From Leifsonia shinshuensis (GTDB lineage Bacteria > Actinomycetota > Actinomycetes > Actinomycetales > Microbacteriaceae): DNA of 64,000 nt. Every line of letters starts with the position of its first letter. The first letter of the stretch is position 1. A model generated the notes under the pieces. That model was not told where the DNA came from, searched no databases, and was given only the letters and a program-made list of their open reading frames with translations. The translations under genes and the position numbers were made by a program. Location: positions 992,001 through 1,056,000 of the forward strand of contig NZ_CP043641.1 of the NCBI RefSeq assembly GCF_014217625.1, in the 5' to 3' direction. Below are positions 18,990-35,227 of the stretch, piece after piece.

Positions 18990-19018
18990 CGGCTAAGGAG
19001 GAGCAGACCCGCGAACAC
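18974..19018 (-). CDS. leuL: Leucine leader peptide
   Basis: A 14-codon reading frame starting with GTG and ending TAG encodes (M)FAGLLLLSRRGES. Four consecutive Leu codons (CTG CTC CTC CTT) sit at positions 5-8. A GAGAG stretch precedes the GTG, and an in-frame TAG lies just upstream, so the frame cannot be longer. It lies 69 bp before leuC and overlaps the attenuator stem. Leader peptides rich in the regulated amino acid are the known mechanism of leucine attenuation in enterobacteria; the same mode here is inferred from the layout. Confidence 0.8.
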   Translation of the reverse strand: MFAGLLLLSRRGES

Positions 19019-19069
19019 GCTCTCAGGCTATCACCCGTGCTGGGGGCAGGACTGCAGGCGCACCGGCCG

Positions 19070-19579
19070 TCAGGACCGCTCGACCCGCAGGCCCAGCTCG
19101 CCCAGCAGCAGTCTCCCGCCGCTCTCCACGGTGCCGGCGGTGCCGGGGACGACCCGCAGCGCCTGGCCGTCCGGCGTCACGACGGTCACACCGTTGGTGG
19201 AGTGCAGATCGGTCACCTGGAGGGCGTCGCCCGCCGGGGCGACGGCCGCGTGGGTCTTCGAGACGGTCGAGGTCGGGTCCTCCAGCGCGACCAGCTCCGC
19301 CGGGCCCGCGTGCGCGGCGGACGACGGGTTGCGTCCCAGCAGCACGGTCGCCGTGACCGGGATGCTCCGTCCGCCGGGCGCGGTGAGCCGCCAGACCGGG
19401 GCCCGCACGGCCGCGGGGGCGGGAGCGCCGGCCGCGGCGGGGCGGAACGACGGCAGGCTGATGTGCGCGGGCGGTTCCACGGCCTCCTCGGGCTCGGCCG
19501 GGCCGCCGCGGGACGGGATGAGCCCAGGCGGAGGCACGATGAAGCCCGGCCGCTCGGCGCGCGTGTCGTCTGTCCCCAC
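19070..19579 (-). CDS. FHA domain protein (C-terminal member of the PFNA-like cluster)
   Basis: 169-residue soluble protein with a Pro/Ala-rich N-terminal half and a C-terminal forkhead-associated domain (about residues 72-167). The phosphothreonine-binding residues are present: LGRNPSS (Arg), STVSKTHAAV (Ser/His) and HSTNGVTVV (Asn-Gly). It probably binds a Thr-phosphorylated partner made by the cluster kinase at 30328-31983. The start is a GTG with a TAGAGT box 6 nt upstream, so it may have its own leaderless transcript although it follows the transglutaminase-fold gene by only 31 bp. Confidence 0.9.
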   Translation of the reverse strand: MGTDDTRAERPGFIVPPPGLIPSRGGPAEPEEAVEPPAHISLPSFRPAAAGAPAPAAVRAPVWRLTAPGGRSIPVTATVLLGRNPSSAAHAGPAELVALEDPTSTVSKTHAAVAPAGDALQVTDLHSTNGVTVVTPDGQALRVVPGTAGTVESGGRLLLGELGLRVERS

Positions 19580-19610
19580 GCGCCCACTCTACGGACTGCG
19601 TCCGTCCGCG

Positions 19611-21905
19611 CTACCCGGCACGCCTCCGGTAGCGGAACGCCGCCAGCCGGGCGCGGAGCCGTCCGGCCGCGGTCATGGCGCCCGCGATGGCCTCGTCCGC
19701 GGCGGTCCACGCCTCGGCGGCGCGCTCGTCGGAGACGTCGCTGCCGTCGAACACGGCCGCGTCGACGTGGCGGGCGAGGGTCGCGAGCCCCGCCGCGGGG
19801 ACGGTCAGCCCCTGCGCCTCCGACTGCTGCTCCAGCGCCGCCGCCGTCTGCAGCCGGGTGGCGCGGGGCGGCGGCACGAGGCCGAGCTCGCCGTAGCGGT
19901 CGGACAGCTCCTCCCACGCCCCGGCGGCCCGGCGATCCGGCGGTCCCGTCGTCTCGCGGAGCCGCCGCCTCCGTCGCTTCAGCCAGGCGACGATCAGCAG
20001 CGGCACGAAGTAGAGCAGCAGCGGGACGCCCACCACGCCGAGCACCACCCACGCCCAGGCCGGCACCTGGAAGGCCGGGCCCGGCTGCTTCTTCTCGGTG
20101 TCCTTGGTCTTGACCGGGGTCAGCAGCTCGTCGGAGCGCGGGTCGACCGGCGGAGGTTGGCGCACCTGCGGCTGCGGCTCCAGCTTGGGCTTCGTGGTCT
20201 GGTTCTTCGGCGCGTCCGTCTTGGTCGGCGTCGGGAAGAACGGCACCCAGCCGACGCCTTCGAACGGGACTTCGACCCAGGCCGTGACGTCGTTGCCCGT
20301 CACGGTCGTCGTGCCGGAGCCGGCCTTCGGCGCGAAGCCCATCACCACGCGCGCCGGGTAGCCGAGGTGCCGGGCCATCAGGGCGAAGGCGCTCGCGTAC
20401 TGCTCCTGGTCGCCCACCATCGGGGACGTGCTGAGCAGGTCCGTCATCCGGTCGGCGCCCTCGCCCGCCCGCGACGGGACCGGGTCGGACGCGCGGCCGT
20501 GGCTGAGGTAGCCGAGCGACTTCAGCGAGCGCTCGATGTTGCGGAGCTTCTGGATCGCCGTGTTCGCCGAGCCCGCATACTCCTCGGCCTTCGAGGCCAC
20601 CACGTCCGGCACGTTGTCGACGGGCGGCAGCACGACGTGGGCCGGGGCCGCCTTCGCGAGCTGCTGGTCGTTCGGGACGCGCTGCGCCGTCGCCTCCACC
20701 GTGTAGCGCAGTCCGTCGCGGACGCCGCTGGTGACGGCGCTGGTGCCGGTGGCGGTGTTCACGCGCACGGTCGCAGACGGGTCCTGGCCGGTGTGCGCGT
20801 CGAAGCCGAGCCTGTCCACATAGCCGAGGGTCGGCAGCCAGACGTCGGAGTAGCCGCGGATGTCGATCGTCGCGGTGCTGGTCGGCCCCGGGGTGAAGAG
20901 CGCCGGGCGCGGGATGGAGCTGCCGAGCAGTTCGAAGGCGCCGGATGCCCCGGACTGCGTGCCGGGCGCGCTGACGGTCCAGACCACGCCGTCGTAGCTG
21001 TCCATGGTGGCGAGCCGGATGACCTGGCCCTGCTTCAATCCCTGCACGGTGAAGAGCGTGGTCTTCTCCAGGTCCTTCGTGTACTTGCGGAACCCGGCGA
21101 GCGGGCTCGGGTAGTCCAGCGGGTCGAACGGCGGCGTGACCTCGTCGCGGACGACCAGCCGGGAGGCCGCGGCCGGCGTGAGCAGCGAGCCCGCGACGGC
21201 GCCGACCAGCAGCGCGCCGACGACGACCGCGACGCCGCTCACCAGCCGGGTGCGGCGCACGCCGGCGCCGACGTTGAGCGCGCGGTTCGCCGCGCCGCGA
21301 CGCCAGGCGAGCCAGACCAGGGCGACGCCGGCGAAGACCACGCCGCGGACACCCGCGAAGTAGGCGTCCCTGGTGCCGAGCAGGATGCCGGCGACGAAGA
21401 GCAGCACCGGCCCGATCAGGAGCACCGCGGCGCGGCCCACGGACGCGCCCGCCTTCGCCCGCGGGAGCCACCGCACCGCGAGCGTGATCGACACCAGGGC
21501 GACCAGCCAGCCGGCGACGAACGGCACGACCGCGACGTACGGCGGCGCCTCCAGCGGCGCGCGGAGGGTGACGGCGTCGCTCCAGCCGAACACCGCGCCG
21601 ACGGCGAGCCCGGACAGGCTGTCGAGCGAGGGCAGCACCCCGGAGAGCGCGAGACCCGGCAGCGCGAGCGGCGTGCCGAGCAGGAAGTACGCCGCCAGCG
21701 CGATCACGACCGTCAGCGGCACGGACAGCCGGAACAGCCTCCCCAGCACGGCGACCGCTCCCCCGACGACGACCCCGCCGAGCGCGGCGGAGAGGAACGC
21801 GTAGTGGCCGAAGGCGGGCTCGAACCCGGCCACGGCGACGAGGCTGAGTGCGGTGACGACCGCGATGTCGATCCACGTGGTCCGCGAGAGCCGGTCGGCG
21901 TTCAT
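19611..21905 (-). CDS. Transglutaminase-fold membrane protein without catalytic triad, cluster 2
   Basis: 764-residue paralogue of the protein at 1712-3976: N-terminal TM helices (about residues 10-255), an external domain, one late TM helix (about 617-640) and a cytoplasmic tail. Aligned with the cluster 1 protein, the catalytic Cys is replaced by Gln (Q500, in GDQEQYASAFALMAR), the His by Thr (T541, in NDVTAWVEV) and the acidic residue by Phe (F557, in VPFFPT). The surrounding fold residues are kept. It is therefore probably not an active transglutaminase but a binding or structural version. The ATG overlaps the DUF58 stop (ATGA). Confidence 0.88.
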   Translation of the reverse strand: MNADRLSRTTWIDIAVVTALSLVAVAGFEPAFGHYAFLSAALGGVVVGGAVAVLGRLFRLSVPLTVVIALAAYFLLGTPLALPGLALSGVLPSLDSLSGLAVGAVFGWSDAVTLRAPLEAPPYVAVVPFVAGWLVALVSITLAVRWLPRAKAGASVGRAAVLLIGPVLLFVAGILLGTRDAYFAGVRGVVFAGVALVWLAWRRGAANRALNVGAGVRRTRLVSGVAVVVGALLVGAVAGSLLTPAAASRLVVRDEVTPPFDPLDYPSPLAGFRKYTKDLEKTTLFTVQGLKQGQVIRLATMDSYDGVVWTVSAPGTQSGASGAFELLGSSIPRPALFTPGPTSTATIDIRGYSDVWLPTLGYVDRLGFDAHTGQDPSATVRVNTATGTSAVTSGVRDGLRYTVEATAQRVPNDQQLAKAAPAHVVLPPVDNVPDVVASKAEEYAGSANTAIQKLRNIERSLKSLGYLSHGRASDPVPSRAGEGADRMTDLLSTSPMVGDQEQYASAFALMARHLGYPARVVMGFAPKAGSGTTTVTGNDVTAWVEVPFEGVGWVPFFPTPTKTDAPKNQTTKPKLEPQPQVRQPPPVDPRSDELLTPVKTKDTEKKQPGPAFQVPAWAWVVLGVVGVPLLLYFVPLLIVAWLKRRRRRLRETTGPPDRRAAGAWEELSDRYGELGLVPPPRATRLQTAAALEQQSEAQGLTVPAAGLATLARHVDAAVFDGSDVSDERAAEAWTAADEAIAGAMTAAGRLRARLAAFRYRRRAG

Positions 21906-23224
21906 CGGCCGGCCCGCTTCAGCAGCGCGGGCAGCTCGTCCAGGCGCCCGAGCACGATCAGGATGGTGCGGCCCAGGCGGGCGACGCGCGGCTCGGCCGT
22001 CTCGTCCACCCGGACCGTGATGGTCTCGGTGTCGGAGGTCCAGAGCGCGGCGGCCGCGCGGAGCTCTGCGGGCGTCGCCTGCGAGCCGACGACCGTCACC
22101 GCGAGGCTGGGCGCGCCCATCCGGAGCGTCGCCTGACGGAGGAACTCCCGCACGCCCGCGCCGGAGCCCGACGGCTGGAGGCGGCACGAGTCGTCCAGGA
22201 ACGCCGTCGGCGTGGAGACGCGCAGGCCGCCGCCCTGCCAGAGCGCGTCGATGCCGGTGTCCTCCCGGATGACATGGCAGCCGATCGAGGCGAACACCGA
22301 GACCGCCAGCTCGAACTCGTCGTCGGACGCGAACCGGGCGCGCTCCGCGTCCAGCGCGAGCAGCAGCTGGGACCGCCGGGTCTCCTGGTACTGCCGCACC
22401 ATCAGCTGGCCGGTGCGCGCGGACGTGCGCCAGTGCACGTTGCGGATGTCGTCGCCCGCCTCGTACGTGCGCAGTGCGTGGAAGGCGAGGTCGGAGTCGG
22501 TGATCACCTTGGTGGTCTGGCCTTCGAGGTCGCGGACGAGCCCGCGGGCGGTCGCGGCGAGCCGGACGGTGCGCGGGTGGACGAACAGCTCGACCTGGTC
22601 GGTCCAGCGCGTCGTGCGCCGCAGCAGCCCGAGCTGATCGCCGCGGACCGAGATCGCGGGGCCGGCGAGGATGAGGGCGCGACGGGCGGTCGGGACGGCG
22701 AACAGCTCCTCGACCTCCGCTCCCGGGACGAGGCGGGGCACGGTGAACCCGGCGACGCCCTCCCCGACCGGCAGCTCCAGCCGGGTCGGGAGGACCGGCC
22801 GCTGCCCGCTGTTGCGGACGGTCAGCCGCCCGTACGCCCGGTCGCCGGCGACCACGCGGCGCGGCGTGAGCTCGACGCCCACCGCATAGGTCGAGCGGCC
22901 GATCACGAAGCCGACCGCGAGCACGAGGGCGGCGAGCAGCGTCGCGCCGAGGAAGGCGAACTCCGCCCAGCCGAACACGAGCACGAGCGTCAGCGCCAGC
23001 ACGCCGGAGACCAGCACCACCCAGCCGAGCGCGCTGACAGTCCGCACGACCGGCGAGACGCGCGCGACGACGGCGCGGCCCGCAGGCGCGCCACGCGCGA
23101 CGAGGCGCCGACCGGTCGCGGCGAGCTGGGCGCCGGCGATCCGCGCCTGCGCCGTGCCTCGCCGCAGCGGGGCGGCGCGGCGTCGCCCGCGTGCGCCCGT
23201 CTCGGTCGTGGTGGATGCGGTCAT
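21902..23224 (-). CDS. DUF58 domain protein, cluster 2
   Basis: 440-residue DUF58 protein. A basic Arg/Ala-rich N-terminus of about 65 residues precedes two TM helices (about 66-112). The family motif YEAGDDIRNVHWRTSARTGQLMV is present in the middle, followed by a vWA-like segment (LLLALDAERARF). Both ends overlap neighbours by 4 bp (ATGA), so MoxR, DUF58 and the transglutaminase-fold protein are made together. Same architecture as the protein at 3969-5321. Confidence 0.9.
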   Translation of the reverse strand: MTASTTTETGARGRRRAAPLRRGTAQARIAGAQLAATGRRLVARGAPAGRAVVARVSPVVRTVSALGWVVLVSGVLALTLVLVFGWAEFAFLGATLLAALVLAVGFVIGRSTYAVGVELTPRRVVAGDRAYGRLTVRNSGQRPVLPTRLELPVGEGVAGFTVPRLVPGAEVEELFAVPTARRALILAGPAISVRGDQLGLLRRTTRWTDQVELFVHPRTVRLAATARGLVRDLEGQTTKVITDSDLAFHALRTYEAGDDIRNVHWRTSARTGQLMVRQYQETRRSQLLLALDAERARFASDDEFELAVSVFASIGCHVIREDTGIDALWQGGGLRVSTPTAFLDDSCRLQPSGSGAGVREFLRQATLRMGAPSLAVTVVGSQATPAELRAAAALWTSDTETITVRVDETAEPRVARLGRTILIVLGRLDELPALLKRAGR

Positions 23225-24189
23225 GCGGCCCGGTAGGCGGGCGGCGTCGCGGCGGCGACAGCCCGCGCCACGATCTCGGCGGCGGTGACCCCGGCGAACT
23301 CCGACTCGGCGTCGACGATGATGCGGTGCGCGAGCACCGGCTGAGCCAGCTCCCGGATGTCGTCGGGCGTCACGTAGCTGCGGCCGGCCGCGATGGCCCA
23401 GGTCTTCGCGGCCCGCGCGAGGGCCAGGGCGCCGCGGATGCTGACGCCGAGCGCGGAGTCCCTGTCGTCGCGGGTGGCGGTGACGATCTCGCTCAGGTAG
23501 CCCATCACCGAGGCGTCGGCGTGGACCTCGGAGGCGAGCTGCGCCAGCGTCGTCACCGAGTCGGCGGCGATGATCGGCCGCACGCCCGACGCCCGCGACC
23601 GGTTCGAGGAGTCGAGCAGGAGGTCGACGGTCGTCGCGTGGTCCGGGTAGCCGAGCGAGGTCTTGATCAGGAACCGGTCGAGCTGGGCCTCCGGCAGCGA
23701 GTAGGTGCCGGACTGCTCGACCGGGTTCTGCGTCGCGATCACCAGGAACGGCGCGCCGACCGGATGGCCGACGCCGTCCACGGTGACGACGCCCTCCTCC
23801 ATGACCTCCAGCAGCGCCGACTGGGTCTTCGGGCTCGCGCGGTTGATCTCGTCGGCCAGCACGACGGAGGCGAAGATCGGGCCGGGGTGGAACTCGAACC
23901 GGCCCGTCGACTGGTCGTAGATGGTGACGCCGGTGACGTCGGAGGGCAGCAGGTCGGGGGTGAACTGGATGCGGGATTGGGTGCCCTCGACCGTGTTCGC
24001 AAGCGCCTTGGCCAGCACCGTCTTGCCGGTGCCCGGCACGTCCTCCAGCAGCACGTGGCCGCCGGAGAGCATCGCGGCGACCACGAGCCGGATGGTGTGC
24101 TCCTTGCCGAGGATCGCCTTGTCGACGTTCGCGACGAGCTGCGCGAACGCGCCGGCGAACCAGTCCGCCTGTTCCTGGGTCACTGCCAC
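23221..24189 (-). CDS. MoxR-family AAA ATPase, cluster 2
   Basis: 322-residue AAA+ ATPase. Walker A is LEDVPGTGKTVLAKAL, Walker B is VVLADEINRASPKTQSALLE; VIATQNPVEQSGTYSLPEAQ follows. Compared with the cluster 1 MoxR it lacks the Gly/Ala-rich tail. It starts 49 bp after the giant Ig/FN3 gene and is coupled to DUF58 by an ATGA overlap. By analogy with the PFNA set it is the AAA-ATPase member; its client could be the giant surface protein (inference). Confidence 0.94.
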   Translation of the reverse strand: MAVTQEQADWFAGAFAQLVANVDKAILGKEHTIRLVVAAMLSGGHVLLEDVPGTGKTVLAKALANTVEGTQSRIQFTPDLLPSDVTGVTIYDQSTGRFEFHPGPIFASVVLADEINRASPKTQSALLEVMEEGVVTVDGVGHPVGAPFLVIATQNPVEQSGTYSLPEAQLDRFLIKTSLGYPDHATTVDLLLDSSNRSRASGVRPIIAADSVTTLAQLASEVHADASVMGYLSEIVTATRDDRDSALGVSIRGALALARAAKTWAIAAGRSYVTPDDIRELAQPVLAHRIIVDAESEFAGVTAAEIVARAVAAATPPAYRAA

Positions 24190-24238
24190 GGTTGATCCTT
24201 CTTGTCGGTTGTCGGTCGGGTCTGGTCGGGGGCCGGGC

Positions 24239-27200
24239 TCACTGCGCCCAGTTCTGGACGCTGCTCTGCACGCCGTTCACGACGACGTACGCGCCGGGGT
24301 ACCCGCAGTACGGCTGCTGGCCGTCCGGCGCGCCGCGGTAGTGGGCGTGCCCGGTGCCGTCGGTGGAGATGGACGGCGACCAGAGTGTGCTCCCATTGCA
24401 GTGCACCTGCATCGGGAAGGTGCGGTTGGCCGGGAAGTTGTTCAGCGTCACGTCGTAGGTGTAGCTGTGCGCGTAGCCCGGCTCCGGGTTGCCCTTGGCG
24501 AGGTCGATCGACGGCTGCGGCGCCGGCTTGTTCGCGACCTGGACCGAGCCGGAGGACGCCGTCGGCCCGGCTTTGCCGCTGTGGTCGTTCGTGGCGTATA
24601 CGTCGAACGAGTAGCTGCCTGCGCCCTTGCCGCCCTCGGACGCGCTCGTGCCCGATGTCGTCTGCCAGGCGCCGTTGTTGAGCCGGTAGTGGTAGGTCAC
24701 CGCCCCGCCGCCGGTGCCGTCCGGGTCGCGCAGCGCGTTCCAGCTCATGCGCACCGTGGCCGGCGCGTACTGGTCGGCCGTGATGGTGAGACCGCCGACC
24801 TTGCTGGGCGTCCCGTAGGGCGTGACCGCCGCGCTCTGCGCGGACACCGGGCCCCAGCCGTCGGCGTTGTGCGCGCGGACGGCGAACCGGTACGACTTGC
24901 CGTTGGTCAGCCCGGTGATGTCCACCCGGCCGATCGCGCCGACGGTGACGGTGCTCTCGCCGCCGCTGACCTCATAGGAGTCGATCGGCTTGCCGTTGTC
25001 GGCCGGGGCGGCGATGGTCACGCTCGCGCGGCCGTCGCCCGCCGACGGGTTCGACGGCGCGGGCGGCTGCGCCGGGACGTCGTGGATGGTGACCCGGTAC
25101 TGCCCGATCGCCGCGGCCGTGCGCTGCGGATCCTTCGTCGCGTCCTCCACGTGGTACACGATGTTGACCGCGCCGATCGCCGCACCGGAGGCAGCGCTGA
25201 CCGTGATGGAGCTCGCCGTGTGGGTGACGGTGACGCCGGAGGGCGCGCTCTGCGCCTGCGCGTCGGTGATGGTCAGAGGTGTGCCGGGGAACGGGTTCAC
25301 CCACGCCGAGTCCGAGGACGCGCCCTGCAGCGTGCCGCTCGACCCGCGTTTCAGCTCGGAGGTCTGCGGCGGGTTCTTCTGGGTGGCCACCGGCCGCGAC
25401 GAACTCACCACCTGTACGTTCACGGTGCCGGTGATCGTGTGCGTGCCCGAGCTGATCGTCACCGTCACGGCGGTGGACTCCCCCGGCTGGACGCCGAGCG
25501 GCGCGGAGAGCGACAGCGTCGAGCCGCTCAGCGAGACGGCGATCTTCTGGTTCGGCCACTGCGGGTTCGAGTAGCTGAGCTTCGCGAGGATGGCCGGGTT
25601 CGGGTGGTAGCTCGACGCCCGCAGGTCGACCGCGAGCGGAGCCTCCCCCGGCTCGATCTTCTCGGTCGGCGACGTGAACGTCGGCGCGACATCCGCCTGC
25701 TCCGGGTCGCCCACGGTGAGTGGGAGGACGAGCGTGGTGATGCGGTCGGAGGTCGCCCCGGCGTCCCGGCCGTCGTCGACCTTGAAGGTGATCGCGGCCG
25801 GACCCCGGTAGTCCTTCAGCGCGCTGAAGGTCAGCGTGTCGTCGCCGCCGAACGACGACGCGCCCGAGCTGTTCGTCGCGCTGACGCCCGACGCGCCGGT
25901 GAGCTTCACGCTCCGGCCGGACGGCACGGTGAGGATGTCCGACAGCTTCCAGCTCTTGCTGCCGTTCATGGGCACGATCTGCTGCGGGAGGCCGTCCTTG
26001 ATCCGCGGCGGGGCGGTCGCGTCGCCCTTGGGCGGAACGACAATGAAGGCGTCGCCGCTGAGCCCGGTGACCCGGTCGGTCACCGAGTACGCGATCGCGG
26101 TCCGGCGGTCGCCCGGGCGCACGGTCACCGTGCCGTCGCTCCCGACGTCGGCCGCGGACGCGTTCGGGCCGAGCACCGCGACCTGGAGGTCCCCGACGAG
26201 GCCGGACGGGTTGACCGCGCCTTCCAGCGCGTTCACCTTCACGCTCGACTTGTTCGAGACGGCGTCGGCCTCCAGCACGTGGTCGACGGCGGACGGCGGC
26301 ACGTCTTTGGCGTCCGGGGTCACGGTGAGCTGGATGAACGCGCTCGCGACCCCGCCCTGGCCGTTCGTGATCTGGTACCGCACGACGTAGGAGCCCTCGC
26401 GGTCCGGCGCCTTCACCAGCACGATCTTGCCGTGCACGGACGCGGTGAGGCCCTGGTCCACGTGCAGCAGCTTCTTCTGCAGAGCGATGGCATAGCCGTT
26501 CGGGTCCGAGTCGTTGTCGAGCACCGGGACCGCGATGGTCCGGCCGGGCTTGACCTGCACCGGGTCGTTGACGGCTACGGGAGGCCGCACCTGGCTCGGC
26601 CGCGGGATGACGCCGACGTTCACGGTGCCGGTCGCGGTCTTCCCGTAGGTGTCCTTCACCGTGTACGTGAACGTGTCGGTGCCCGCGGAGTCCGGGTACG
26701 CCTCGTACGTGAACGCCGTGCTGGTCGTGCCGGAGATCCGGCCGAGGGTCGGCTGACTGCCGAGCCCGGCGAGCACGACGGAGTCGCCGTCCGGGTCGAT
26801 GCCGTCGAGCGGGACCTCGATCGGGACGGACGAGCCGGCGAAGGCGCGCACGGTCAGCGGCTGCGGCTGCGGGGCGCGGTCGCTCCCCTTGTCCGGGGCG
26901 GTCACCACGAAGGTGACGGTGGCCTGCGCCTTCTGCCCGTACTTGTCGGTGATCCCGTAGACGACGCTGTACTGGCCGGGCGTTGTCGGAGCCTGGTAGC
27001 GCACGGTCTTGCCGCTCACGAACGCCGTGGCCCCCTTGCCGGCCGCGGAGGCGTCGCGCAGCTGCGGGTCGAGCGAGAACGGCGCGTTGTCGGGCGACGA
27101 GTCGTTGTCGAGCACGGAGGCGGTCGCGACGTCCCCCGCCCGGACGGTCACGGTGTCGTCCACCGCGACGGGAGGCTGGTGCACGACCAGCGGCGGCACC

Positions 27201-29518
27201 GGGATGACGGTGATCCCGGCCGTCGCCTCGTGCGTCCCGTCCGACACCGTGTACTGGAGCTGCACCTGCTGGGTCAGCACGGTCGGCGCGGTGATCTTGA
27301 CCACCGCGTTGTCCAGGACCTCCACGTCGAGGTCCTGGGCTCCCGGCCCTGGCGTCACCTGCCGCACGACGAGGACGCGCCCCGACGGCGAGACGTCGTT
27401 GTCGAGCACGGCGACCGAGGTCGGCTCGCCCGGCCGGACGTACGCGCGGTCCGCGACCGCGATCGGCGGCGCGTCGGTGGCGCCTTGCTGCGCGACGTCG
27501 AAGCGCACGATCCCGGTCGTGCTCTTGGGCCCGGCGCCGAGCGTGTACTCGGCGTAGTACTCGCCGGCCGCGCTGGTCGTGAGCGTGAGCGTGCCGTGCG
27601 CCGGATCGGCCGTCACCCGCCCGGACCCCGGTCCCGTCAGCGTCGCGCCCACCAGGGTGAGCGGCTCCCCCGACGGCGACTGGTCGTTGTCCAGCGGGTG
27701 GACGACGACGGGCTGCCCGGTGAACCCCGAGCCGAAGTCCGGCACGGCCACCGGGTCGAGCGTGCCGGAGGGCTTCACCGTGACGATCAGGCTCCCGGTC
27801 GTGGACTTCCGGCCATCGGAGACCGTGACGCGGACCTCCTTCGATCCCGCCTGGCCGGTCTTGCTCGTGAACGTCACGTCGCCGTCCGGCTTGAACCGCA
27901 CGTCGTCCTCGGTCGTGGCGGACGCGGAGACGAGCGAGAGGTCGTCGCCGTCGGGGTCCAGCCAGTCGTTGAGCACGTTGTAGGTCACCGACTGGCCGAC
28001 CTCCGTCTGGGCCGCGCTCGGCCGGGTCGACGCCGGCGGGTCGTTCTGGGCGTCCAGGTGGATGGTCGCGTTGACGTTCGCGGACGCCGTCCCGCCCCGG
28101 CCGTCGTCGATGGAGTAGCGGAAGGTCACCGTCCCGGTCACGCCGTCCTTCGGCGTGAACTGGATGGCGCGCCCGCCCTCCACCAGCGCGAGCTGCCCCT
28201 GATCGGCCGGGATCGGCGAGACCTGCGTGATGGTGAGCACGTCCCCGTCGGGATCGGTGTCGTTCGCCAGCACGTGCAGCACGGTCGAGCGGCCCGGCCG
28301 CACGCCGAAGCTGTCGTCCACCGCGGTGGGCGGGCGGTTCACCGAGGTGCGCTGCGCGAGGGTGTCCGCGAAGGACTGCACGACCGGCTTCTCCTCGCCG
28401 GTGTCGCCCTGGACGGTCGTGTCGTTGGGCTTGAGCTGCGCCCAGTTCTGCACCAGGCGCATGTTGGAGGACACCACCCAGGCGTTCCCGTCGCGCAGGT
28501 TGTTGAGGGCGATGACGCCGTGGTTGACCCGGAACTCCAGGTCGTCGCCGGTCACCTGCTGGTCGATGTCCAGCCCGACCGGCTTCGTGCCGTCGCAGGC
28601 GTAGAGGTAGCGGGCGGACCCGGCCCAGGCCCCGTACGAGCAGGTGCCGAGCCGGACCGGTGCGGAGACCGCGCTCGCTCCTCCGCTGGAGGTCGCGCCG
28701 GCGGGTGCCGAGGTCACCGTGCCCCCGGCGAGCGGGACGCTCAGCAGGCTGTTCGCCGTCGCGACGAGCGCGGCCGGGTCGTCGGGGCCGGGCTGCTGGA
28801 TCCGCAGGCCCTTCGCCGGGAGGGCGACGGTCGTGCCCGAGTCGGTGACCAGCTTGTCCGCCTGCGTGTCGAGCAGCACCGCATGGTCGCCGACCGCGGA
28901 AAGCTGGAAGGAGCCCGGCACCGGGAACGACGCCGAGGACGCCGCCGCGCCGGGATGGTCGACCGTGACGAGCCGCTTGCCCTTCGGCGCGGCGACGAAC
29001 GTCTTCCCCGACTTCGCGACCACCAGCTTCGCGCCAGCGCCCACCGAAGCCGTCGGCGTCGTCTTCGATTTGTCGAAGTCGAGCCGTCCGGTGGCGTCGA
29101 GCACCCACAGCGAGCCAGTCGGCGAGAGCACGGAGAGCGTCGACCCGCCGTAGCCGACCTGGGAGCCGTCCGGCACCTGGATGCGGCCGCCGAGCGACAC
29201 GAACGCCGGGTCGATGCGGTCGACGGTCCCGTGCGGGAGGTCGGTGAGGAAGTACGACGAGCCGTCCTGCAGCACGTCCAGGTCGGCGGAGGACCCGGTG
29301 ACCGCGGCGTCGAGCTCGTCGATCTGATGGTTGAGGCGGCCGCCGAGCAGCCGCTCGCCGTTCGTCACCCAGACGTCGCGGGTGTCGAGCTGGACGGCGT
29401 TGACCGGGAATCCGCGGTGCAGCACCGCGACCGTGAGCGGGACCCCTGCGACGACGGCGAGAGCAGTGGCGATGGCGAGCGTCTTGCGCTCGCGGATCCA
29501 CTTGCTCAACGATGCCAA
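24239..29518 (-). CDS. Giant exported Ig-like / fibronectin type III protein
   Basis: About 1759 residues. A TM helix near the N-terminus (TLAIATALAVVAGVPL) anchors or exports it. Next comes a region of about 350 residues with beta-propeller-like repeats, then roughly eleven Ig-like domains of about 95 residues. Several of these have the V-x-V-L-D/A-N-D-x-D/S-P-D/S-G signature, for example VLHVLANDTDPDGD. Two FN3 domains follow (ITGLTNGKSYRFAVRAHN) and a C-terminal segment of about 95 residues with two Cys. I chose TTG at 29518 because the upstream GGGGGA is placed as a ribosome binding site; ATGs at 29608 and 29599 are in frame. Probably the surface effector of the cluster, corresponding to FN3 in PFNA. 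Confidence 0.85.
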   Translation of the reverse strand: MASLSKWIRERKTLAIATALAVVAGVPLTVAVLHRGFPVNAVQLDTRDVWVTNGERLLGGRLNHQIDELDAAVTGSSADLDVLQDGSSYFLTDLPHGTVDRIDPAFVSLGGRIQVPDGSQVGYGGSTLSVLSPTGSLWVLDATGRLDFDKSKTTPTASVGAGAKLVVAKSGKTFVAAPKGKRLVTVDHPGAAASSASFPVPGSFQLSAVGDHAVLLDTQADKLVTDSGTTVALPAKGLRIQQPGPDDPAALVATANSLLSVPLAGGTVTSAPAGATSSGGASAVSAPVRLGTCSYGAWAGSARYLYACDGTKPVGLDIDQQVTGDDLEFRVNHGVIALNNLRDGNAWVVSSNMRLVQNWAQLKPNDTTVQGDTGEEKPVVQSFADTLAQRTSVNRPPTAVDDSFGVRPGRSTVLHVLANDTDPDGDVLTITQVSPIPADQGQLALVEGGRAIQFTPKDGVTGTVTFRYSIDDGRGGTASANVNATIHLDAQNDPPASTRPSAAQTEVGQSVTYNVLNDWLDPDGDDLSLVSASATTEDDVRFKPDGDVTFTSKTGQAGSKEVRVTVSDGRKSTTGSLIVTVKPSGTLDPVAVPDFGSGFTGQPVVVHPLDNDQSPSGEPLTLVGATLTGPGSGRVTADPAHGTLTLTTSAAGEYYAEYTLGAGPKSTTGIVRFDVAQQGATDAPPIAVADRAYVRPGEPTSVAVLDNDVSPSGRVLVVRQVTPGPGAQDLDVEVLDNAVVKITAPTVLTQQVQLQYTVSDGTHEATAGITVIPVPPLVVHQPPVAVDDTVTVRAGDVATASVLDNDSSPDNAPFSLDPQLRDASAAGKGATAFVSGKTVRYQAPTTPGQYSVVYGITDKYGQKAQATVTFVVTAPDKGSDRAPQPQPLTVRAFAGSSVPIEVPLDGIDPDGDSVVLAGLGSQPTLGRISGTTSTAFTYEAYPDSAGTDTFTYTVKDTYGKTATGTVNVGVIPRPSQVRPPVAVNDPVQVKPGRTIAVPVLDNDSDPNGYAIALQKKLLHVDQGLTASVHGKIVLVKAPDREGSYVVRYQITNGQGGVASAFIQLTVTPDAKDVPPSAVDHVLEADAVSNKSSVKVNALEGAVNPSGLVGDLQVAVLGPNASAADVGSDGTVTVRPGDRRTAIAYSVTDRVTGLSGDAFIVVPPKGDATAPPRIKDGLPQQIVPMNGSKSWKLSDILTVPSGRSVKLTGASGVSATNSSGASSFGGDDTLTFSALKDYRGPAAITFKVDDGRDAGATSDRITTLVLPLTVGDPEQADVAPTFTSPTEKIEPGEAPLAVDLRASSYHPNPAILAKLSYSNPQWPNQKIAVSLSGSTLSLSAPLGVQPGESTAVTVTISSGTHTITGTVNVQVVSSSRPVATQKNPPQTSELKRGSSGTLQGASSDSAWVNPFPGTPLTITDAQAQSAPSGVTVTHTASSITVSAASGAAIGAVNIVYHVEDATKDPQRTAAAIGQYRVTIHDVPAQPPAPSNPSAGDGRASVTIAAPADNGKPIDSYEVSGGESTVTVGAIGRVDITGLTNGKSYRFAVRAHNADGWGPVSAQSAAVTPYGTPSKVGGLTITADQYAPATVRMSWNALRDPDGTGGGAVTYHYRLNNGAWQTTSGTSASEGGKGAGSYSFDVYATNDHSGKAGPTASSGSVQVANKPAPQPSIDLAKGNPEPGYAHSYTYDVTLNNFPANRTFPMQVHCNGSTLWSPSISTDGTGHAHYRGAPDGQQPYCGYPGAYVVVNGVQSSVQNWAQ

Positions 29519-29620
29519 GACTCTGATATCCCCCGGGACTGGAAACACAAGTACGCTAACACGGCCCCTGAACGGGATCGGATGGGGAGGACTCCCCATC
29601 CGCCGCACAGCGCGCCCAGC

Positions 29621-30331
29621 TCAGTCGCTGCCAGAATCCGCCGGGCCGGCGGCCGCGTCAAGCAGCGGGAGGTCTTCGATCCCGACGAGCCGCGTCGTCA
29701 CCGCGTACTCCACCAGGCGTGCGCGGCGGTTCGTCGCCAGCTTTCCGCGGCCTCCGCGCAGCCCGGCGACGCCGAGCCGGTCGAGCTTGTCGCAGACGTT
29801 GTCGAGCTTGCGGTTGAAGGTCGTCATGCTCCAGCCGAGCCGCTCCGCCGCCTCCGCGGAGCTCGGAATGCTGCCCCGGCCGGGCAGCGACTGGGTCAGC
29901 ACACCCTCGGCGAGCGCCACGATGAGCTGCCGCTGGCTGGTGGTCAGTGTCACGGGGAGGACCGTCGTCGAGCCTCCCGTGCCGTCCACCGCGACCGAGG
30001 TGTTGAAGTAGTCCGCGTCGCTGGAGATCGTGAAGTCGTAGGTCGTCGCGCCCGCGCTGAACATGACGTGCAGGGTCTGGAACACGATCGGCAGCTTCGC
30101 CCCTGGCGCGAGCCAGGCCTGCATCGTGCCGGAGGCGTCGGTGACCGTCGCGGTGAGCAGCGTGCCGACGTTGTTCAGCCACCACATCCCGAAGTCGTTG
30201 CTGATGCTGAGGAACCGCCGGTGCAGGTACGGGTTGTCGTCGATCGACAGGTCGGCCTCCCGGCCGATGCCGAACTCCGCGTCGGCGGCGACCGGATACT
30301 CCTCGCCGCAGAACTCGACCGTGAGGCTCAC
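29621..30331 (-). CDS. FHA-like domain fused to a helix-turn-helix-like C-terminus
   Basis: 236-residue soluble protein. The first ~110 residues look like an FHA domain: FGIGREADLSID (Gly-Arg), NPYLHRRFLSI (His) and WLNNVGTLL (Asn-x-Gly), although the usual Ser before the His is absent. The C-terminal half (TLTTSQRQLIVALAEG, then SSAEAAERLGWSMTTFNRKL) resembles a winged-helix or sigma-type HTH. It could read kinase output and bind DNA (inference). GTG at 30331 overlaps the kinase stop as GTGA, with AAGG 10 nt upstream; a second GTG at 30340 is possible. Confidence 0.75.
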   Translation of the reverse strand: MSLTVEFCGEEYPVAADAEFGIGREADLSIDDNPYLHRRFLSISNDFGMWWLNNVGTLLTATVTDASGTMQAWLAPGAKLPIVFQTLHVMFSAGATTYDFTISSDADYFNTSVAVDGTGGSTTVLPVTLTTSQRQLIVALAEGVLTQSLPGRGSIPSSAEAAERLGWSMTTFNRKLDNVCDKLDRLGVAGLRGGRGKLATNRRARLVEYAVTTRLVGIEDLPLLDAAAGPADSGSD

Positions 30332-31983
30332 GAGGAGCACGCCTTCAGCGGCTGGGACGTGCGGCCGGCGCGGATGGTGGTGACGTCGACGCAGACCGGC
30401 ACGCCGGGCGTGAGGCCGGTGAGGGTGACCGTCGTGTCGGACGTGACGGCGGGCGCGTCGGTGGTGCCCTCGCGCACCCAGGAGTACTGGTCGCCGGACT
30501 TCGGCTGGGCGGTCTTCCAGACGATGGTGGCCGAGGTGGCCGCGGCGTCGCGCTTGGCGGAGACCAGCGTGGGCTGCGGGACGACCGTGACCGGGACGAC
30601 GCCGTCGTCGCCGCCCTGCCGGTTCGTGGCCGGGGCGGCGGGCGTGAGGGCGTTGGAGACGATCGCGGCGCCCACGGCGATCACCACGACCGCCGCTGCG
30701 CCGGCGGCGATCCAGGTGAGGAGGCGGCGGCGTGGGGCGTTCTCGGGCTGCCGGCCGCGGTCACTCTCGGGCTCGGCCTCCGGGGCGACGGCGACGGGAG
30801 CGGGGCGCAGGACCGTGCTCTCGACCGGGGCAGGGACCCCGGCCACCGGAGAGACGGGGGCGATGCCGCGGATGCGGGTCGGCTCGGCGGTCGGCGCGGC
30901 CTCCGGAGCGGGCTGCGCCTGCGGGTCGGGCTCCGGCGCCGCCTTCGGCCGCACCGGCTGCGCCACGACGGTCGCGACGGACCGCGCGCGGGTCGCCCCC
31001 GCGTCGCCGGCCTCCCCCGCGCCTTCCGCCACACCGACGTGGTCGGTCGCGATGTGGAGGTTGGGCACGTCGATGCTCGTCGGCGAGAGACCGAGCTCCA
31101 GCTCCACCCGCTGCAGCGCGCGGGCGAACTCGACCGCCGAGCCGTAGCGGTTCTCCCGGCGCGGGGCCATCCCCGTCCGCAGCACCGCGGTCAGCGACGG
31201 CGGGAGGTCGGGCCGGTCGAGCGGGGTGATCATCCCGCGCTCGATGCGGCCGATCAGGTCGAGCGTCCCGTTGGAGCGGCCGGGCACCTCGAACGGCGTG
31301 CGCCCGGCGAGCAGCGTGTGGAGCGTCGCAGCGAGCGAGAAGATGTCGCTGCGGACATCCGGGTCCGGGTCGTCGGCGAACATCTCCGGCGGCGACCACG
31401 GCACGCTGAGCCCGACGGACCGGCTCCCGCTCGTGGCCGTGTCCGACCCCGCCCGGCGCAGCTCGGACAGCGTCGCCGTGTGCACCGGCAGCTCCTCCAG
31501 AGCGGAGGCGATGCCGAAGTCGGTCAGCGCCGGCCAGCCGAACGCGTTCGTCAGCACGTTGGCCGGCTTGATGTCGCGATGCAGGATGCCGGCGTCGTGC
31601 GCGGTCGCGACGGCGCTCGAGAGCCGCACGCCGGTCCGCAGCGCGTCCTCCACCGGGATGCGCTCGCGCTTGAGCCGGTCGGCGAGCGACGGGCCGGAGC
31701 AGTACTCCATCACCAGGTACGGCCGGTCGTCGCCGGAGACCCCCGCGTCGAAGATCGTCGCGATGAACGGGTGCGCGGACAGCCGCGCCATCACGTTCGC
31801 CTCGGTCACGAACCGGGCGCGCGCCGCCTCGTCCACGCTGTCGGTCAGCAGCACCTTCACGGCGACGCTGCGCTTGGGCAGCTCCTGCTCGTAGAGGAAG
31901 ACGTCGGAGAAGCCCCCGGAGCCGAGCAGCCGGATGAAATGCAGCCCGGCCAACTCGGGAGGCGTCGACGCCATCCTCCTCAT
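30328..31983 (-). CDS. Membrane Ser/Thr protein kinase with external FN3-like domain
   Basis: 551-residue Hanks-type kinase. Catalytic features are complete: GSGGFSDV loop, VAVKVLL Lys, FVTEANVMARL Glu, LHRDIKPANVL, TDFGIAS. A Pro/Ala-rich linker of about 100 residues leads to one TM helix (about 421-443), then an extracellular domain of about 105 residues resembling FN3 (VSAKRDAAATSATIVWKT). There are no PASTA repeats, so it differs from PknB and matches the Pkb2 type of the PFNA cluster. The ATG at 31983 has GAGGAG 6 nt before it. The matching phosphatase lies two genes upstream. Confidence 0.93.
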   Translation of the reverse strand: MRRMASTPPELAGLHFIRLLGSGGFSDVFLYEQELPKRSVAVKVLLTDSVDEAARARFVTEANVMARLSAHPFIATIFDAGVSGDDRPYLVMEYCSGPSLADRLKRERIPVEDALRTGVRLSSAVATAHDAGILHRDIKPANVLTNAFGWPALTDFGIASALEELPVHTATLSELRRAGSDTATSGSRSVGLSVPWSPPEMFADDPDPDVRSDIFSLAATLHTLLAGRTPFEVPGRSNGTLDLIGRIERGMITPLDRPDLPPSLTAVLRTGMAPRRENRYGSAVEFARALQRVELELGLSPTSIDVPNLHIATDHVGVAEGAGEAGDAGATRARSVATVVAQPVRPKAAPEPDPQAQPAPEAAPTAEPTRIRGIAPVSPVAGVPAPVESTVLRPAPVAVAPEAEPESDRGRQPENAPRRRLLTWIAAGAAAVVVIAVGAAIVSNALTPAAPATNRQGGDDGVVPVTVVPQPTLVSAKRDAAATSATIVWKTAQPKSGDQYSWVREGTTDAPAVTSDTTVTLTGLTPGVPVCVDVTTIRAGRTSQPLKACSS

Positions 31984-31993
31984 GCGCCGCTCC

Positions 31994-33196
31994 TCATCGG
32001 CCGGCCTCGACCGTGAGCGTCGCGCCGCTGCCGAGGTCGACCACGGTGCCGGCGACCACGGTCGTGGGCTCTCCGGCGCGCAGCTTCTGCGGGGACTTGC
32101 CCGGCAGGACGATCAGGGTGCCGTTGCGCGAGTGGAGGTCGGTGACGACGACGGTGTCGCCCTCGACGGCGACCGCGACGTGCGAGCGCGAGATGTCCTC
32201 CTCGACGCCGGTCAGGGTCAGCGGGCGGGCGCCGCGCAGCGTCCGGAAGGCGGAGGCGCTCGGAGCGCGGCCGACGATCACGGCGCCGGCCAGCGGCTCG
32301 CTGCGGCCGTCCGGGAGGATCAGCCGGTAGCCTGCGGCAGCAGGGGGCTCGGCCGGTTCGGCGGGTGGCTCCGCTGCTGCTTCGACCGGGGTGCGCGCGG
32401 GGAGGTCGCCGCTCAGCACGGTCAGGCCGTCGTGGTCGCCGACCGCCGCGGCGGACGGGAAGGAGTCGGTGATGAAGCCGGGGAGGTCGATCCGGGCGGG
32501 CTCCTGCGCCTGCTCGGCCCGGACGGCGGCCTCCTCGATTCCGCGCATCATCGTCGCGCCGAAGAGGTGGTCGTAACCGGAGGGTTCACGCTCGGGGGGC
32601 TCTGCGATGGTGGACTCGGGGACGCGGGTGGGCTGGTCGACGGGTGCGGGCTCCGGAGCCACCGGCTCCAGCGTCCCCGGCTCCAGGGCCACCGGCTCCA
32701 GCGCCCCGTCCTCCAGCACCACCGGCTCGGTGATCCGCGACAGCTTCGCCGGCTCCCCACCGTCCCGTGGCGGCGCCGCAGCGTCCCCCGACGCCGTCCA
32801 CACCAGCGCCGTGCCGCGCACGATGCCCTCGGCCACCGGCAGCGTCGCGCCGCCCGGCTCCCCCAGGGTCACCGCCGACGCGGCCTCCACCTGCGTCTCC
32901 AGCCAGGACGACACCGCCGCGCGCAGTTCGCGGGGGCCGCCGTCGTCCGTCACCGTCGCCGGCAGCCCGCGGACCGCGAGCAGCACGGCCTCCCCGCTCG
33001 TGTCGAGGAGCCCGAACGCCGGGGTCCGGCTCAGGCCGTCCGCGATCAGCGCGTCCAAGGTCTCGGCGAAGCCGGTCCGCACCGCGGTCAGGTAGCGCAG
33101 CAGCGGCTCGCGGCCGGCCTGCGCGACGAGGAGCGCCCGCCCGGCCGCCGCGACGACCGCCCACTCCCCTGCCGTCGCCTGCTGCACCTCGAACAC
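31994..33196 (-). CDS. FHA domain protein with unassigned N-terminal domain
   Basis: 400 residues. The N-terminal part (about 1-150) is an unassigned alpha/beta domain (starts MFEVQQATAGEWAVVAAAG). The middle is Pro/Glu/Ala-rich and probably flexible. The C-terminal FHA domain (about 300-398) has all binding residues: VIVGRAPSAS, EDISRSHVAVA, HSRNGTLIVL. It lies between the PP2C and the kinase with gaps of 6 and 10 bp, so it is likely a substrate or adaptor of both. Confidence 0.9.
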   Translation of the reverse strand: MFEVQQATAGEWAVVAAAGRALLVAQAGREPLLRYLTAVRTGFAETLDALIADGLSRTPAFGLLDTSGEAVLLAVRGLPATVTDDGGPRELRAAVSSWLETQVEAASAVTLGEPGGATLPVAEGIVRGTALVWTASGDAAAPPRDGGEPAKLSRITEPVVLEDGALEPVALEPGTLEPVAPEPAPVDQPTRVPESTIAEPPEREPSGYDHLFGATMMRGIEEAAVRAEQAQEPARIDLPGFITDSFPSAAAVGDHDGLTVLSGDLPARTPVEAAAEPPAEPAEPPAAAGYRLILPDGRSEPLAGAVIVGRAPSASAFRTLRGARPLTLTGVEEDISRSHVAVAVEGDTVVVTDLHSRNGTLIVLPGKSPQKLRAGEPTTVVAGTVVDLGSGATLTVEAGR

Positions 33197-33202
33197 GTGC
33201 GA

Positions 33203-34012
33203 TTACTCCCTCGGCTGCGTGTCGTCGAGCTCCCGGCCGGCGAGCCTGTCGCGGGTGTCGACAGCGGCCGGAGCGTCATCCCCCGGCCTCGATTCAACCA
33301 CGATCACCGTGACATTGTCGTGGCCACCCGCCGCGACCGCGGCCTCCACCAGCACGGCGGCCGGATCGTCGGGGTCGCCGGCGAGCAGTTCCGCGATCGT
33401 CTCGTCGCCGAGCTCCCTGGTCAGCCCGTCCGAGCAGATCAGGAAGGTCTGGCGCCCGGTCTCCGGCAGCAGCTCGCTGTCCGTGTCCACGAAGTCCTCT
33501 GCGCCGAGCGCCCGCGTGATCACGTTGCGCTCCGGGTGCACGGCAGCCTGCTCGGGGCTGATGAGCCCGGCGTCGACGAGTTCCTGGACCGCCGAGTGGT
33601 CGACGGTCAGGCGGCTGAGCTGCCGTCCGTCCCACCCGTAGACGCGGGAGTCGCCGACGTTGACGACCATCCACTCCTCCGCGGCGCGCTCGGGCACGCG
33701 CACCCGCACGACGCCGGTGAGCGTGGTGCCCGCGACGGCGGCGCCGGTCTCCTCGGCGTCGGACAGCGCCCGCACCGCGGCGTTCGCCTCGTCGATCGCG
33801 GTGATGACCTCCTCCGGCGTCGGGGTGGCCCCGGCGGGGAGGGTGCGGGCGAGGCTCTCAACCGCCGTCCGGCTCGCCACGTCGCCGCGTGCGTGACCGC
33901 CCATCCCGTCCGCGACCACGAAGACCGGGTCCTGCGCGAGGTAGCTGTCCTCGTTGACGTGCCGGACCGCTCCGGTGTCGCTGCGGGCGCTCACCTCGAC
34001 GCGGGAAGTCAT
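33203..34012 (-). CDS. PP2C-family protein phosphatase
   Basis: 269-residue Ser/Thr phosphatase that would reverse the cluster kinase. It has the PPM motifs: HVNEDSYLAQ, VVADGMGGHARGD, VVNVGDSRVYGW, LICSDGLTREL and GGHDNVTVIV. The Asp residues bind the two catalytic Mn/Mg ions. It has no membrane segment, so it is cytosolic. Its ATG overlaps the terC stop (ATGA), so its translation is coupled to a gene that has a manganese riboswitch. Confidence 0.94.
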   Translation of the reverse strand: MTSRVEVSARSDTGAVRHVNEDSYLAQDPVFVVADGMGGHARGDVASRTAVESLARTLPAGATPTPEEVITAIDEANAAVRALSDAEETGAAVAGTTLTGVVRVRVPERAAEEWMVVNVGDSRVYGWDGRQLSRLTVDHSAVQELVDAGLISPEQAAVHPERNVITRALGAEDFVDTDSELLPETGRQTFLICSDGLTRELGDETIAELLAGDPDDPAAVLVEAAVAAGGHDNVTVIVVESRPGDDAPAAVDTRDRLAGRELDDTQPRE

Positions 34013-35079
34013 GTGCGTGGGTCCTCCGGGGAGTTCTCGGCCTGGGCGGCCTCTGCGGTCGTCGTCGCCGGTTCGTCATCCCCCTGGATGGCGTGCTCGA
34101 CGGTGGTGCCGCTCAGGTGCAGCCTCACCAGACTAGCGACGGTCGCGACCACCATCGCACCGACGATCACCGCGAGGGAGGTCCAGGTGCTGATATCGGG
34201 GGCCCACTCGATGTGCTCGCCGCCGTTGACGAACGGCAGCGTGTTCTCGTGCATGGCGTGGAAGACCAGCTTGACGCCGATGAAGGCGAGAATGAACGCG
34301 ATCCCGTACTTGAGGTAGACGAGCTTCTCCAGCAGGTGACCCAGCAGGAAGTACAGCTGCCGCAGCCCCATCAGGGCGAACACGTTGGCGGTGAACACGA
34401 TGAACGCGCTCTGCGTGATGCCGAAGATCGCCGGGATGGAGTCGAGCGCGAACAGCAGGTCGGTCGTCCCGAGCGCCAGGAACACGATGATCAGCGGCGT
34501 GAACATCCGCCGGCCGTTCACCGTGGTGCGCAGCTTGTTGCCCTCGTACTGGTCGGAGACCTGGAGCCTGCGCCGGGCGAAGCGGATGAACCAGCTGTCC
34601 TGCGCGCCCTCGTCGTCGTGCTTCCCGAACGCCTGGTTGAACGCCGTCCAGAGCAGGAAGGCGCCGAACAGGTAGAAGATCGCGCTGAAGCTGGCGATGA
34701 GGCCGGCGCCGAGCAGGATGAACACGCCGCGGAACACCAGCGCCAGGATGATGCCCACCATGAGCACCTCCTGCTGGTACTTCCTGGGCACGGCGAACCG
34801 GCCCATGATGATCACGAACACGAACAGGTTGTCGATGCTCAGGCTGTACTCGGTGAGCCAGCCGGCGAGGAACTGCCCGGCGTGCTCGGCGTCGCCGATC
34901 AGCAGCATGAGCAGCGCAAACACCAGCGCCAGGCCGACGTAGAACGCCACCCAGAGCGCGGACTCCTTCGGGCTCGGGATGTGCGGCCGCTTGTAGACGA
35001 TCAGGAGGTCGAAGGCGAGGACGAGCAGCAGGACGACGAAGCTGCCGACCTCGAACCAGAGCGGGAGGGCGAGTTCCAA
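34009..35079 (-). CDS. TerC-family integral membrane protein (probable Mn exporter)
   Basis: 356 residues with about nine TM helices. The two acidic TerC motifs are present: YSLSIDNLFVFVIIMGRF and LLFALDSIPAIFGIT. TerC-family proteins such as Alx and YkoY/YceF are linked to manganese efflux and to metal loading of exported enzymes. The start is a TTG at 35079 preceded by AAAGG with 7 nt spacing; a longer reading would include the riboswitch. The tail (last ~30 residues) is acidic and Thr/Ala-rich. It heads the PP2C-FHA-kinase operon. Confidence 0.93.
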   Translation of the reverse strand: MELALPLWFEVGSFVVLLLVLAFDLLIVYKRPHIPSPKESALWVAFYVGLALVFALLMLLIGDAEHAGQFLAGWLTEYSLSIDNLFVFVIIMGRFAVPRKYQQEVLMVGIILALVFRGVFILLGAGLIASFSAIFYLFGAFLLWTAFNQAFGKHDDEGAQDSWFIRFARRRLQVSDQYEGNKLRTTVNGRRMFTPLIIVFLALGTTDLLFALDSIPAIFGITQSAFIVFTANVFALMGLRQLYFLLGHLLEKLVYLKYGIAFILAFIGVKLVFHAMHENTLPFVNGGEHIEWAPDISTWTSLAVIVGAMVVATVASLVRLHLSGTTVEHAIQGDDEPATTTAEAAQAENSPEDPRT

Positions 35080-35218: not shown

Positions 35219-35227
35219 CGAGCACCC

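Follow-up and report, generated by a model that had tools for sequence, protein, structure and literature searches.

At positions 19070-35079 of a 64,000-nucleotide stretch of the Leifsonia shinshuensis genome (NZ_CP043641.1, positions 992,001 to 1,056,000; below, the window), a Ser/Thr kinase, a phosphatase, FHA proteins, a giant surface protein and a transglutaminase-like protein (TGM) are encoded side by side. Such genes recall the PFNA cluster, which has been described as exclusive to bifidobacteria and as a line of communication with the human immune system. The locus raises the question of whether it is related to PFNA, which genes belong to it, and what they do together. The first-pass annotation had read ten genes in one direction with almost no gaps, and all ten were confirmed in that sequence: on the minus strand they run leftward, TerC (35079) being the first and an FHA protein ending at 19070 the last (G000:C1:1011070-1027079). 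Neighbouring genes overlapped or were at most 72 bases apart, the gaps from TerC to FHA2 being -4, 6, 10, -13, 72, 49, -4, -4 and 31 bases. The gap of -13, between the kinase and the following protein (here called FHTH), becomes -4 with a later FHTH start at 30331, and the gap of 72 shrinks with an earlier start of the giant. The content and order of the genes, the borders of the module, the residues lost, the predicted folds and the linker motif were computed directly.

A PFNA-type cluster outside bifidobacteria

The cluster is homologous to PFNA and has the same core order of kinase, FN3 giant, MoxR, DUF58 and TGM in one direction, which agrees with the annotation's match of the core to PFNA. 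The published PFNA genes are pkb2, fn3, aaa-atp, duf58 and tgm, with prpC and fha too in some species (PMC8430577; here and below, published statements are taken from parts of the papers). The order giant-MoxR-DUF58-TGM was kept in 105 of the 107 fetched loci having both giant and TGM; the exceptions were L113 (Humibacter albus), with two clusters in tandem, and L228, in which no MoxR was picked, and the fetched loci were not all independent, since L136/G033:C12 and L168/G056:C47 appear to be the same genomes. In the fetched loci, FHTH followed the kinase directly in 79 of 85 cases, the six exceptions being L089, L140, L095, the second copy in L074, and L122 and L096 (nothing or an edge before). 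These two counts place the arrangement beyond chance. The homology of the giant to Bifidobacterium reaches beyond the FN3 repeats: its N-terminal head aligned with those of the Bifidobacterium-type loci L217-L220 and L222. The features of the cluster are as follows.

33203..34012, minus strand: PP2C-type Ser/Thr phosphatase of 269 aa that forms the upstream border of the conserved module (PF13672, PP2C_2, 4.8e-12)
31994..33196, minus strand: FHA1, 400 aa, with a canonical C-terminal FHA domain (PF00498 1.3e-5; GR, SRSH and SRNG residues)
30328..31983, minus strand: membrane Ser/Thr kinase, 551 aa (PF00069 2.6e-33; fn3 0.006, under the cut-off)
30805..30885, minus strand: kinase linker with two Thr motifs, proposed autophosphorylation and FHA docking sites (EPTRIR, residues 367-372; ESTVLR, 388-393)
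29621..30340, minus strand: FHTH, 239 aa (236 aa with the later start), an FHA-fold domain and a C-terminal helical part, probably helix-turn-helix
24239..29548, minus strand: giant surface protein, 1769 aa (Big_9 2.2e-79 in 7 stretches, one fn3 6.7e-8; start uncertain, 29608, 29599 or 29548)
28259..29548, minus strand: residues 1-430 of the giant, comprising its membrane anchor and beta-propeller head (84-row alignment, structure prediction, Foldseek)
23221..24189, minus strand: MoxR-family AAA+ ATPase, 322 aa (AAA_3 1e-61; PGTGKT and DEINR motifs)
21902..23224, minus strand: DUF58 protein, 440 aa (PF01882 5.2e-14)
19611..21905, minus strand: TGM, a TgpA-like membrane protein with a putative pseudo-transglutaminase domain, 764 aa (Transglut_core 2.3e-15, TgpA_N 6.9e-8)
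19070..19579, minus strand: FHA2, a small FHA protein of 169 aa that forms the downstream border of the conserved module (PF00498 1.7e-4; GR, SKTH and STNG residues)

The expected active-site or binding residues were found in the kinase (AVKV, HRDIKPAN, DFG), PP2C (DGMGGH, SDG, GGHDN), MoxR, FHA1 and FHA2, the motifs being those that we take to mark these families. The Walker A pattern was present in 61 of the 62 MoxR proteins of the compared loci. PP2C also gave an Stp1-like NCBIfam match at 7.1e-60, under the family cut-off.

The spread of the cluster was investigated in named records and in genomes of the window's family, which was assumed to be Microbacteriaceae on the basis of those records. 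Clusters were found in named Leifsonia, Agromyces, Cryobacterium, Microbacterium, Salinibacterium, Arthrobacter and other records; of 80 named non-Bifidobacterium loci, 71 showed both giant and TGM. With a threshold of E<=1e-20, TGM relatives were present in 47 of 60 family genomes, counted by TGM whether or not linked to a kinase; the best E was <=3.2e-54 in 46 of them and 1.1e-26 in G051. The annotation had proposed a neighbourhood search in other Microbacteriaceae, in which the cluster recurred, the FHTH-bearing form only in 21 of the 60 family genomes. FHTH was found in 10 of 246 genomes of the phylum, two of them weakly, and the window's own genome is in both counts. The nearest named TGM relatives were in Leifsonia, that of L. 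virtsii (L110) being 79% identical in the best segment, and the TGM of G336 was identical to a B. gallicum TGM. PFNA has been stated to occur only in bifidobacteria (PMC10688814), and the clusters in other named genera contradict this restriction. Among the titles and opening lines listed by searches of the open-access literature, no description of PFNA outside bifidobacteria or of a dead TGM was found. PFNA has been likened to the mycobacterial moxR operon (PMC12067865). With the same core in many actinobacterial genera, a host-specific origin is unlikely, and the question moves to genera that can be studied outside a host.

The Leifsonia cluster and the Bifidobacterium PFNA share homologous core genes in the same order, a giant with a homologous membrane-proximal head, a kinase with a homologous FN3-like module (in at least four of six loci) and a TGM without the catalytic Cys. 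In the Leifsonia cluster, unlike the Bifidobacterium PFNA, the kinase is preceded by PP2C and FHA1 and separated from the giant by FHTH, TGM is followed by an FHA gene, and the kinase linker bears Thr motifs. No FHTH was seen in the six Bifidobacterium-type loci (L217-L222); three had PP2C after TGM with a weak FHA match beyond, on the opposite strand in two. The PFNA core was already known; new is the relay, which none of the six Bifidobacterium-type loci showed. Gene order also varied: the PP2C-FHA1-kinase(-FHTH) block came after TGM, not before the giant, in Herbiconiux, Agreia, Subtercola, Arthrobacter and most of the Microbacterium loci that were long enough to show it. The Leifsonia order was also found in one Microbacterium (L139).

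The transglutaminase-like protein and the giant head

The annotation named the ninth protein a transglutaminase-fold protein. The homology was confirmed with Transglut_core and with a solved transglutaminase, 6g49, which we take to be P. aeruginosa TgpA; an 11-row TGM profile aligned with it at E 6.5e-13. The catalytic residues, however, are missing: the slots for Cys, His and Asp hold Gln500, Thr541 and Phe557, with G-D-Q here for G-F-C there. TGM therefore has sequence homology to a TgpA-type core and lacks the Cys-His-Asp/Glu triad. The tgm gene is named a predicted or putative transglutaminase in the published PFNA papers, in the parts cited here.

None of the 47 TGMs that have a kinase or giant head in the neighbourhood had the catalytic Cys, against 18 of 20 with neither (67 rows), the Cys-bearing loci being largely hand-picked after the Cys had already been noticed in several. 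The 18 consist of 17 of 20 fetched regions and the window's third trio; L239 and L249 had neither Cys, kinase nor head. The kinase pattern misses kinases that another search finds in L217-L220, L225 and L105, which count through the giant head, and the giant-head profile (E<=1e-3) may catch unrelated propellers in L103, L105, L230 and L246. In a census of 159 rows, which included the window's canonical TGM, E-Q directly followed the Cys slot in all 109 PFNA TGMs beside a giant; this conservation is partly biased, since the 80 named loci were found by patterns, one of them requiring EQYA, while the Cys slot itself was free. L145 had no slot. Among homologues of the B. gallicum TGM, Ser occupied the slot in all of the best 120 of 474 matches, with VGDSEQ[YF]A in 119 and VGNSEQYA in one; only some of these bear the name Bifidobacterium.

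D-H-D was the commonest slot triple, and the His was retained in part of the clusters. The active site seems to have decayed stepwise, with Cys lost first, and TGM is predicted to be catalytically dead, in Bifidobacterium too. In the TGM tree, a quick version with 61 of the 67 rows, the 16 Cys rows were on one side of a branch with support 93, and the Cys-less PFNA rows needed two changes. Loss of the Cys may go back to one or two old events, and the counts of its association with linkage are therefore not independent. The predicted loss of the active site corrects the working assumption on tgm.

At window positions 1712-6500, minus strand, a canonical MoxR-DUF58-TGM trio was observed whose TGM slots hold Cys-His-Glu and which has no kinase in its neighbourhood. 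This MoxR-DUF58-TgpA type of trio has the same three families in the same order as the PFNA-type cluster; unlike the latter, it has no kinase or giant head nearby and its TGM retains Cys-His-Glu/Asp. P. aeruginosa PA2875-PA2873 is presumably such a trio, with PA2875-PA2874 as MoxR and DUF58. P. aeruginosa TgpA (PA2873) is reported to be active, essential and co-transcribed with PA2875-PA2874 (PMC3507681). A loss of the DUF58 metal site in parallel with TGM was inspected as well and gave no clean contrast.

The giant consists of an N-terminal hydrophobic helix, a beta-propeller, Big_9/cadherin-like repeats and FN3. An alignment of its first 430 residues covered 84 giants, including five of Bifidobacterium type, and showed Cys303 and Cys318 to be invariant. 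The AF2 model of the head showed the N-terminal helix and a high-confidence beta-propeller (pLDDT 88.5, pTM 0.78; 91-98 by block over residues 61-370). The best Foldseek matches were a YVTN propeller from an archaeon and a number of BamB and cytochrome-cd1-type propellers at a probability of 1.00, with moderate TM values by query of 0.41-0.52 in the top three. The modelled fold is clearly that of a beta-propeller, its nearest family is not clear, and the propeller is predicted to be membrane-proximal. The word "propeller" was not found in the PFNA papers PMC8430577, PMC10688814, PMC12607495 and PMC6803598.

A candidate phospho-relay and the rival readings

The kinase consists of a kinase domain, a cytoplasmic linker, a hydrophobic segment from about residue 421 and an extracytoplasmic FN3-like module. 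When this module was compared with six Bifidobacterium-type kinases, four matched at E<=1e-5, a fifth at 0.003, and one did not match. The shared module argues for a common rather than a host-specific input to the kinase. The linker is Ala/Pro-rich and carries a repeated motif, [DE]xT[RKVIMLS][AVILMFRY]R, with 117 matches in 57 of 67 linkers of FHTH loci; shuffled linkers gave a mean of 1.4 and a maximum of 7, a figure that is descriptive only because the pattern was drawn from inspected linkers. The linker set had been reduced from 90 to 86, and the FHTH label misses loci that carry FHTH (L080, L092). The Ser version of the motif had no match and the Ala version one; without the acidic residue, the counts were 170 for Thr, 6 for Ser and 7 for Ala. 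FHA domains read phosphothreonine, so the contrast between Thr and Ser is a stronger argument than the shuffle figure. The motif was not above shuffles in PP2C, FHTH, giant, MoxR, DUF58, TGM and FHA2, and FHA1 had 6 matches against 1.6. Among control kinases of the same genome, it was present in one of six open frames (L002, L003, L004, L006, L008), L008 being the kinase of a second PFNA-type cluster; no frame in L001, L005 or L007 matched the catalytic pattern applied.

Three FHA-type proteins had been proposed, the one after the kinase as "FHA-like/HTH". FHA1 and FHA2 have the FHA residues; FHTH does not have the canonical signature GR...SxxH...NG, as there is no Ser before the His and N-V-G replaces N-G. 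Its GR, Arg27, His40, Arg41 and Asn57 were invariant in 68 rows. Neither Pfam (at E<=0.01) nor NCBIfam contained a family matching FHTH, and the FHTH profile found nothing credible among the sequences of solved structures. The predicted structure and fold alignments nevertheless point to an FHA fold for its first part. The C-terminal half is helical in the model (helices 134-215), and HTH_8 matched weakly at E<=1 in 27 of 68 members, the best at 0.0095, which lends the helix-turn-helix part weak support. The HTH half was absent from the fold alignments; these were taken up by FHA matches and say nothing on its fold. FHTH differs from EmbR, the FHA transcription factor of M. tuberculosis: the aligned FHA of EmbR is at residues 285-381, its C-terminal end, whereas the FHA part of FHTH is N-terminal, lacks the canonical Ser and is followed by a short helical part.

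The results are consistent with an envelope-sensing and remodelling unit of Actinomycetales, homologous to PFNA, in which the kinase marks its own linker and MoxR-DUF58 works on TGM and the giant; we give this reading an even chance. Every contact between the proteins, their sidedness in the membrane, the phosphorylation, the binding to DNA and the nature of the signal are our inferences. Outside the cell, the giant (anchor, beta-propeller, Ig/FN3 stalk), the FN3-like module of the kinase and the pseudo-transglutaminase domain of TGM would form or probe a surface complex, with TGM acting as a binding or scaffold partner and not as an enzyme. Inside, the kinase would phosphorylate threonines of its own linker, on which FHA1 and FHA2 could dock; FHTH, encoded next to the kinase, would take the signal to DNA, and PP2C would reset it. 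MoxR and DUF58 may work as a chaperone pair, driven by ATP, in remodelling the TGM/giant complex. The pair may also be a kinase substrate, as reported for B. longum, where Pkb2 phosphorylates the PFNA MoxR (PMC8430577). In B. longum GT15, eight PFNA genes were co-transcribed, according to the same source. The Thr-only linker motif and an FHA-HTH protein offer a concrete, testable pathway from phosphorylation to DNA. A broader form, in which PFNA is a pan-Actinomycetales envelope-sensing machine (propeller/Ig giant, dead-transglutaminase scaffold, MoxR motor) and did not arise in bifidobacteria for contact with the host, and in which Microbacteriaceae and their kin gained a phospho-relay of Thr-only docking motifs, FHA proteins and a novel FHA-HTH family of transcription factors, has slightly less than an even chance.

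Several observations weigh against this scheme. Lost catalysis in TGM does not show a binding role, and without the canonical FHA Ser the binding of phosphothreonine by FHTH is uncertain. In G036 (L089 6900-7697), FHTH stood alone between terC and leuC with the rest of the module not found; on a Microbacteriaceae metagenome contig (L140), it was beside FHA1 and leuC with no kinase match. Given these two loci, FHTH may act independently. The motif was not confined to FHTH loci, with 15 matches in 8 of 19 linkers labelled as without FHTH, some of them mislabelled. It was missing from all six Bifidobacterium-type kinases, whose loci show no FHTH, so the relay was not part of the ancestral core. 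No signal molecule was indicated.

The most serious competitor is adhesin assembly: the giant would serve as an adhesin or a fibre on the surface, to be folded or positioned by MoxR, DUF58 and TGM, and the kinase, PP2C and FHA proteins would only tune its amount or display. The giant is the largest product and lies ahead of MoxR-DUF58-TGM in the 105 loci of conserved order, and the FN3 protein has been reported in bifidobacterial adhesion (PMC12607495, PMC6803598). The kinase's own FN3-like module and Thr-motif linker point to sensing instead, and FHTH suggests a route to DNA; adhesin assembly is considered doubtful, though with an appreciable share of the probability.

That the cluster is a conflict or immunity system akin to the ternary systems of MoxR, vWA and a third component is quite improbable. 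The fold of DUF58 is presumably vWA-like, and the cluster, like those systems, joins MoxR with a vWA-type partner and a third component, pairing both with a beta-propeller. The MoxR passed the bpMoxR Pfam cut-off at 37.3 against 27 bits, but AAA_3 fitted it far better, at 207 bits, and the propeller follows a membrane anchor and is probably outside. FHA domains also occur in the ternary systems (PMC7159879). Unlike these systems, the Leifsonia cluster has predicted envelope-anchored parts, a putative pseudo-transglutaminase and a membrane kinase; third components and effectors were not searched for. Communication with the host immune system, with cytokines bound by the FN3 protein and host signals passed on by the kinase, has been published for the bifidobacterial PFNA, cytokine binding by the FN3 protein included. 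The homologous core in the same order in L217-L222 would suit it. The occurrence of giant and TGM together in most of the named non-Bifidobacterium loci, and of TGM relatives across the family, makes it very improbable indeed as a general function. Leifsonia, Agromyces, Cryobacterium, Microbacterium, Salinibacterium and Arthrobacter are mostly soil, plant, ice or water genera.

Module borders and neighbouring genes

The conserved module of nine genes runs from PP2C to FHA2 and is placed beside terC in some lineages. The annotation had seen a complete unit of phosphatase, phospho-readers and TerC; PP2C and the FHA proteins do belong to it, but TerC was rejected as a component, because terC stays by leuC with the module elsewhere or not found. 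The flanking gene is as follows.

34009..35079, minus strand: TerC/Alx-family membrane protein (TerC Pfam 1.3e-48; TIGR03718 2.3e-107), overlapping PP2C by 4 bases

The spacing of terC and leuC was investigated in the 46 family genomes with typed matches of both on one contig and strand. It was within 1.5 kb in 29, 1.5-9 kb in 6, 15-40 kb in 9, and 2 pairs were far apart. TerC was typed in 51 of the 59 genomes with a match; the excluded eight (G004, G007, G013, G014, G015, G020, G035, G050) had TerC matches at 45-54% identity only, none on the contig and strand of the leuC match. Eight of the 29 close pairs had an FHTH-bearing cluster elsewhere in the genome. Seven of the nine wide pairs enclosed FHTH, and the other two (G023, G052) enclosed TGM with no FHTH match. 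In the window's genome, terC and PP2C may nevertheless be coupled in expression by their 4-base overlap. A metal riboswitch before TerC, the type considered being presumably yybP-ykoY, was rejected: an Rfam search of 18800-36600 gave only a tRNA over the gathering score and two matches below it.

A second PFNA-type cluster was observed in the same genome (L101, G000:C1:599000-618900), with FHA1, PP2C, kinase, giant, MoxR, DUF58, TGM and FHA2; FHTH was not found there, and its TGM is likewise without Cys. L075 has two giants in tandem. L074 has a second FHTH with PP2C and FHA genes, and the TGMs of that genome appear in pieces. L181, a short contig labelled Stenotrophomonas maltophilia with a Microbacterium-like TGM-FHA2-PP2C, is probably a contaminant or mislabelled. 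In the window, a metallo-beta-lactamase-fold-like protein, named by eye from its sequence, is encoded at 35532-36335, minus strand, between tRNA-Glu (36414-36489) and terC.

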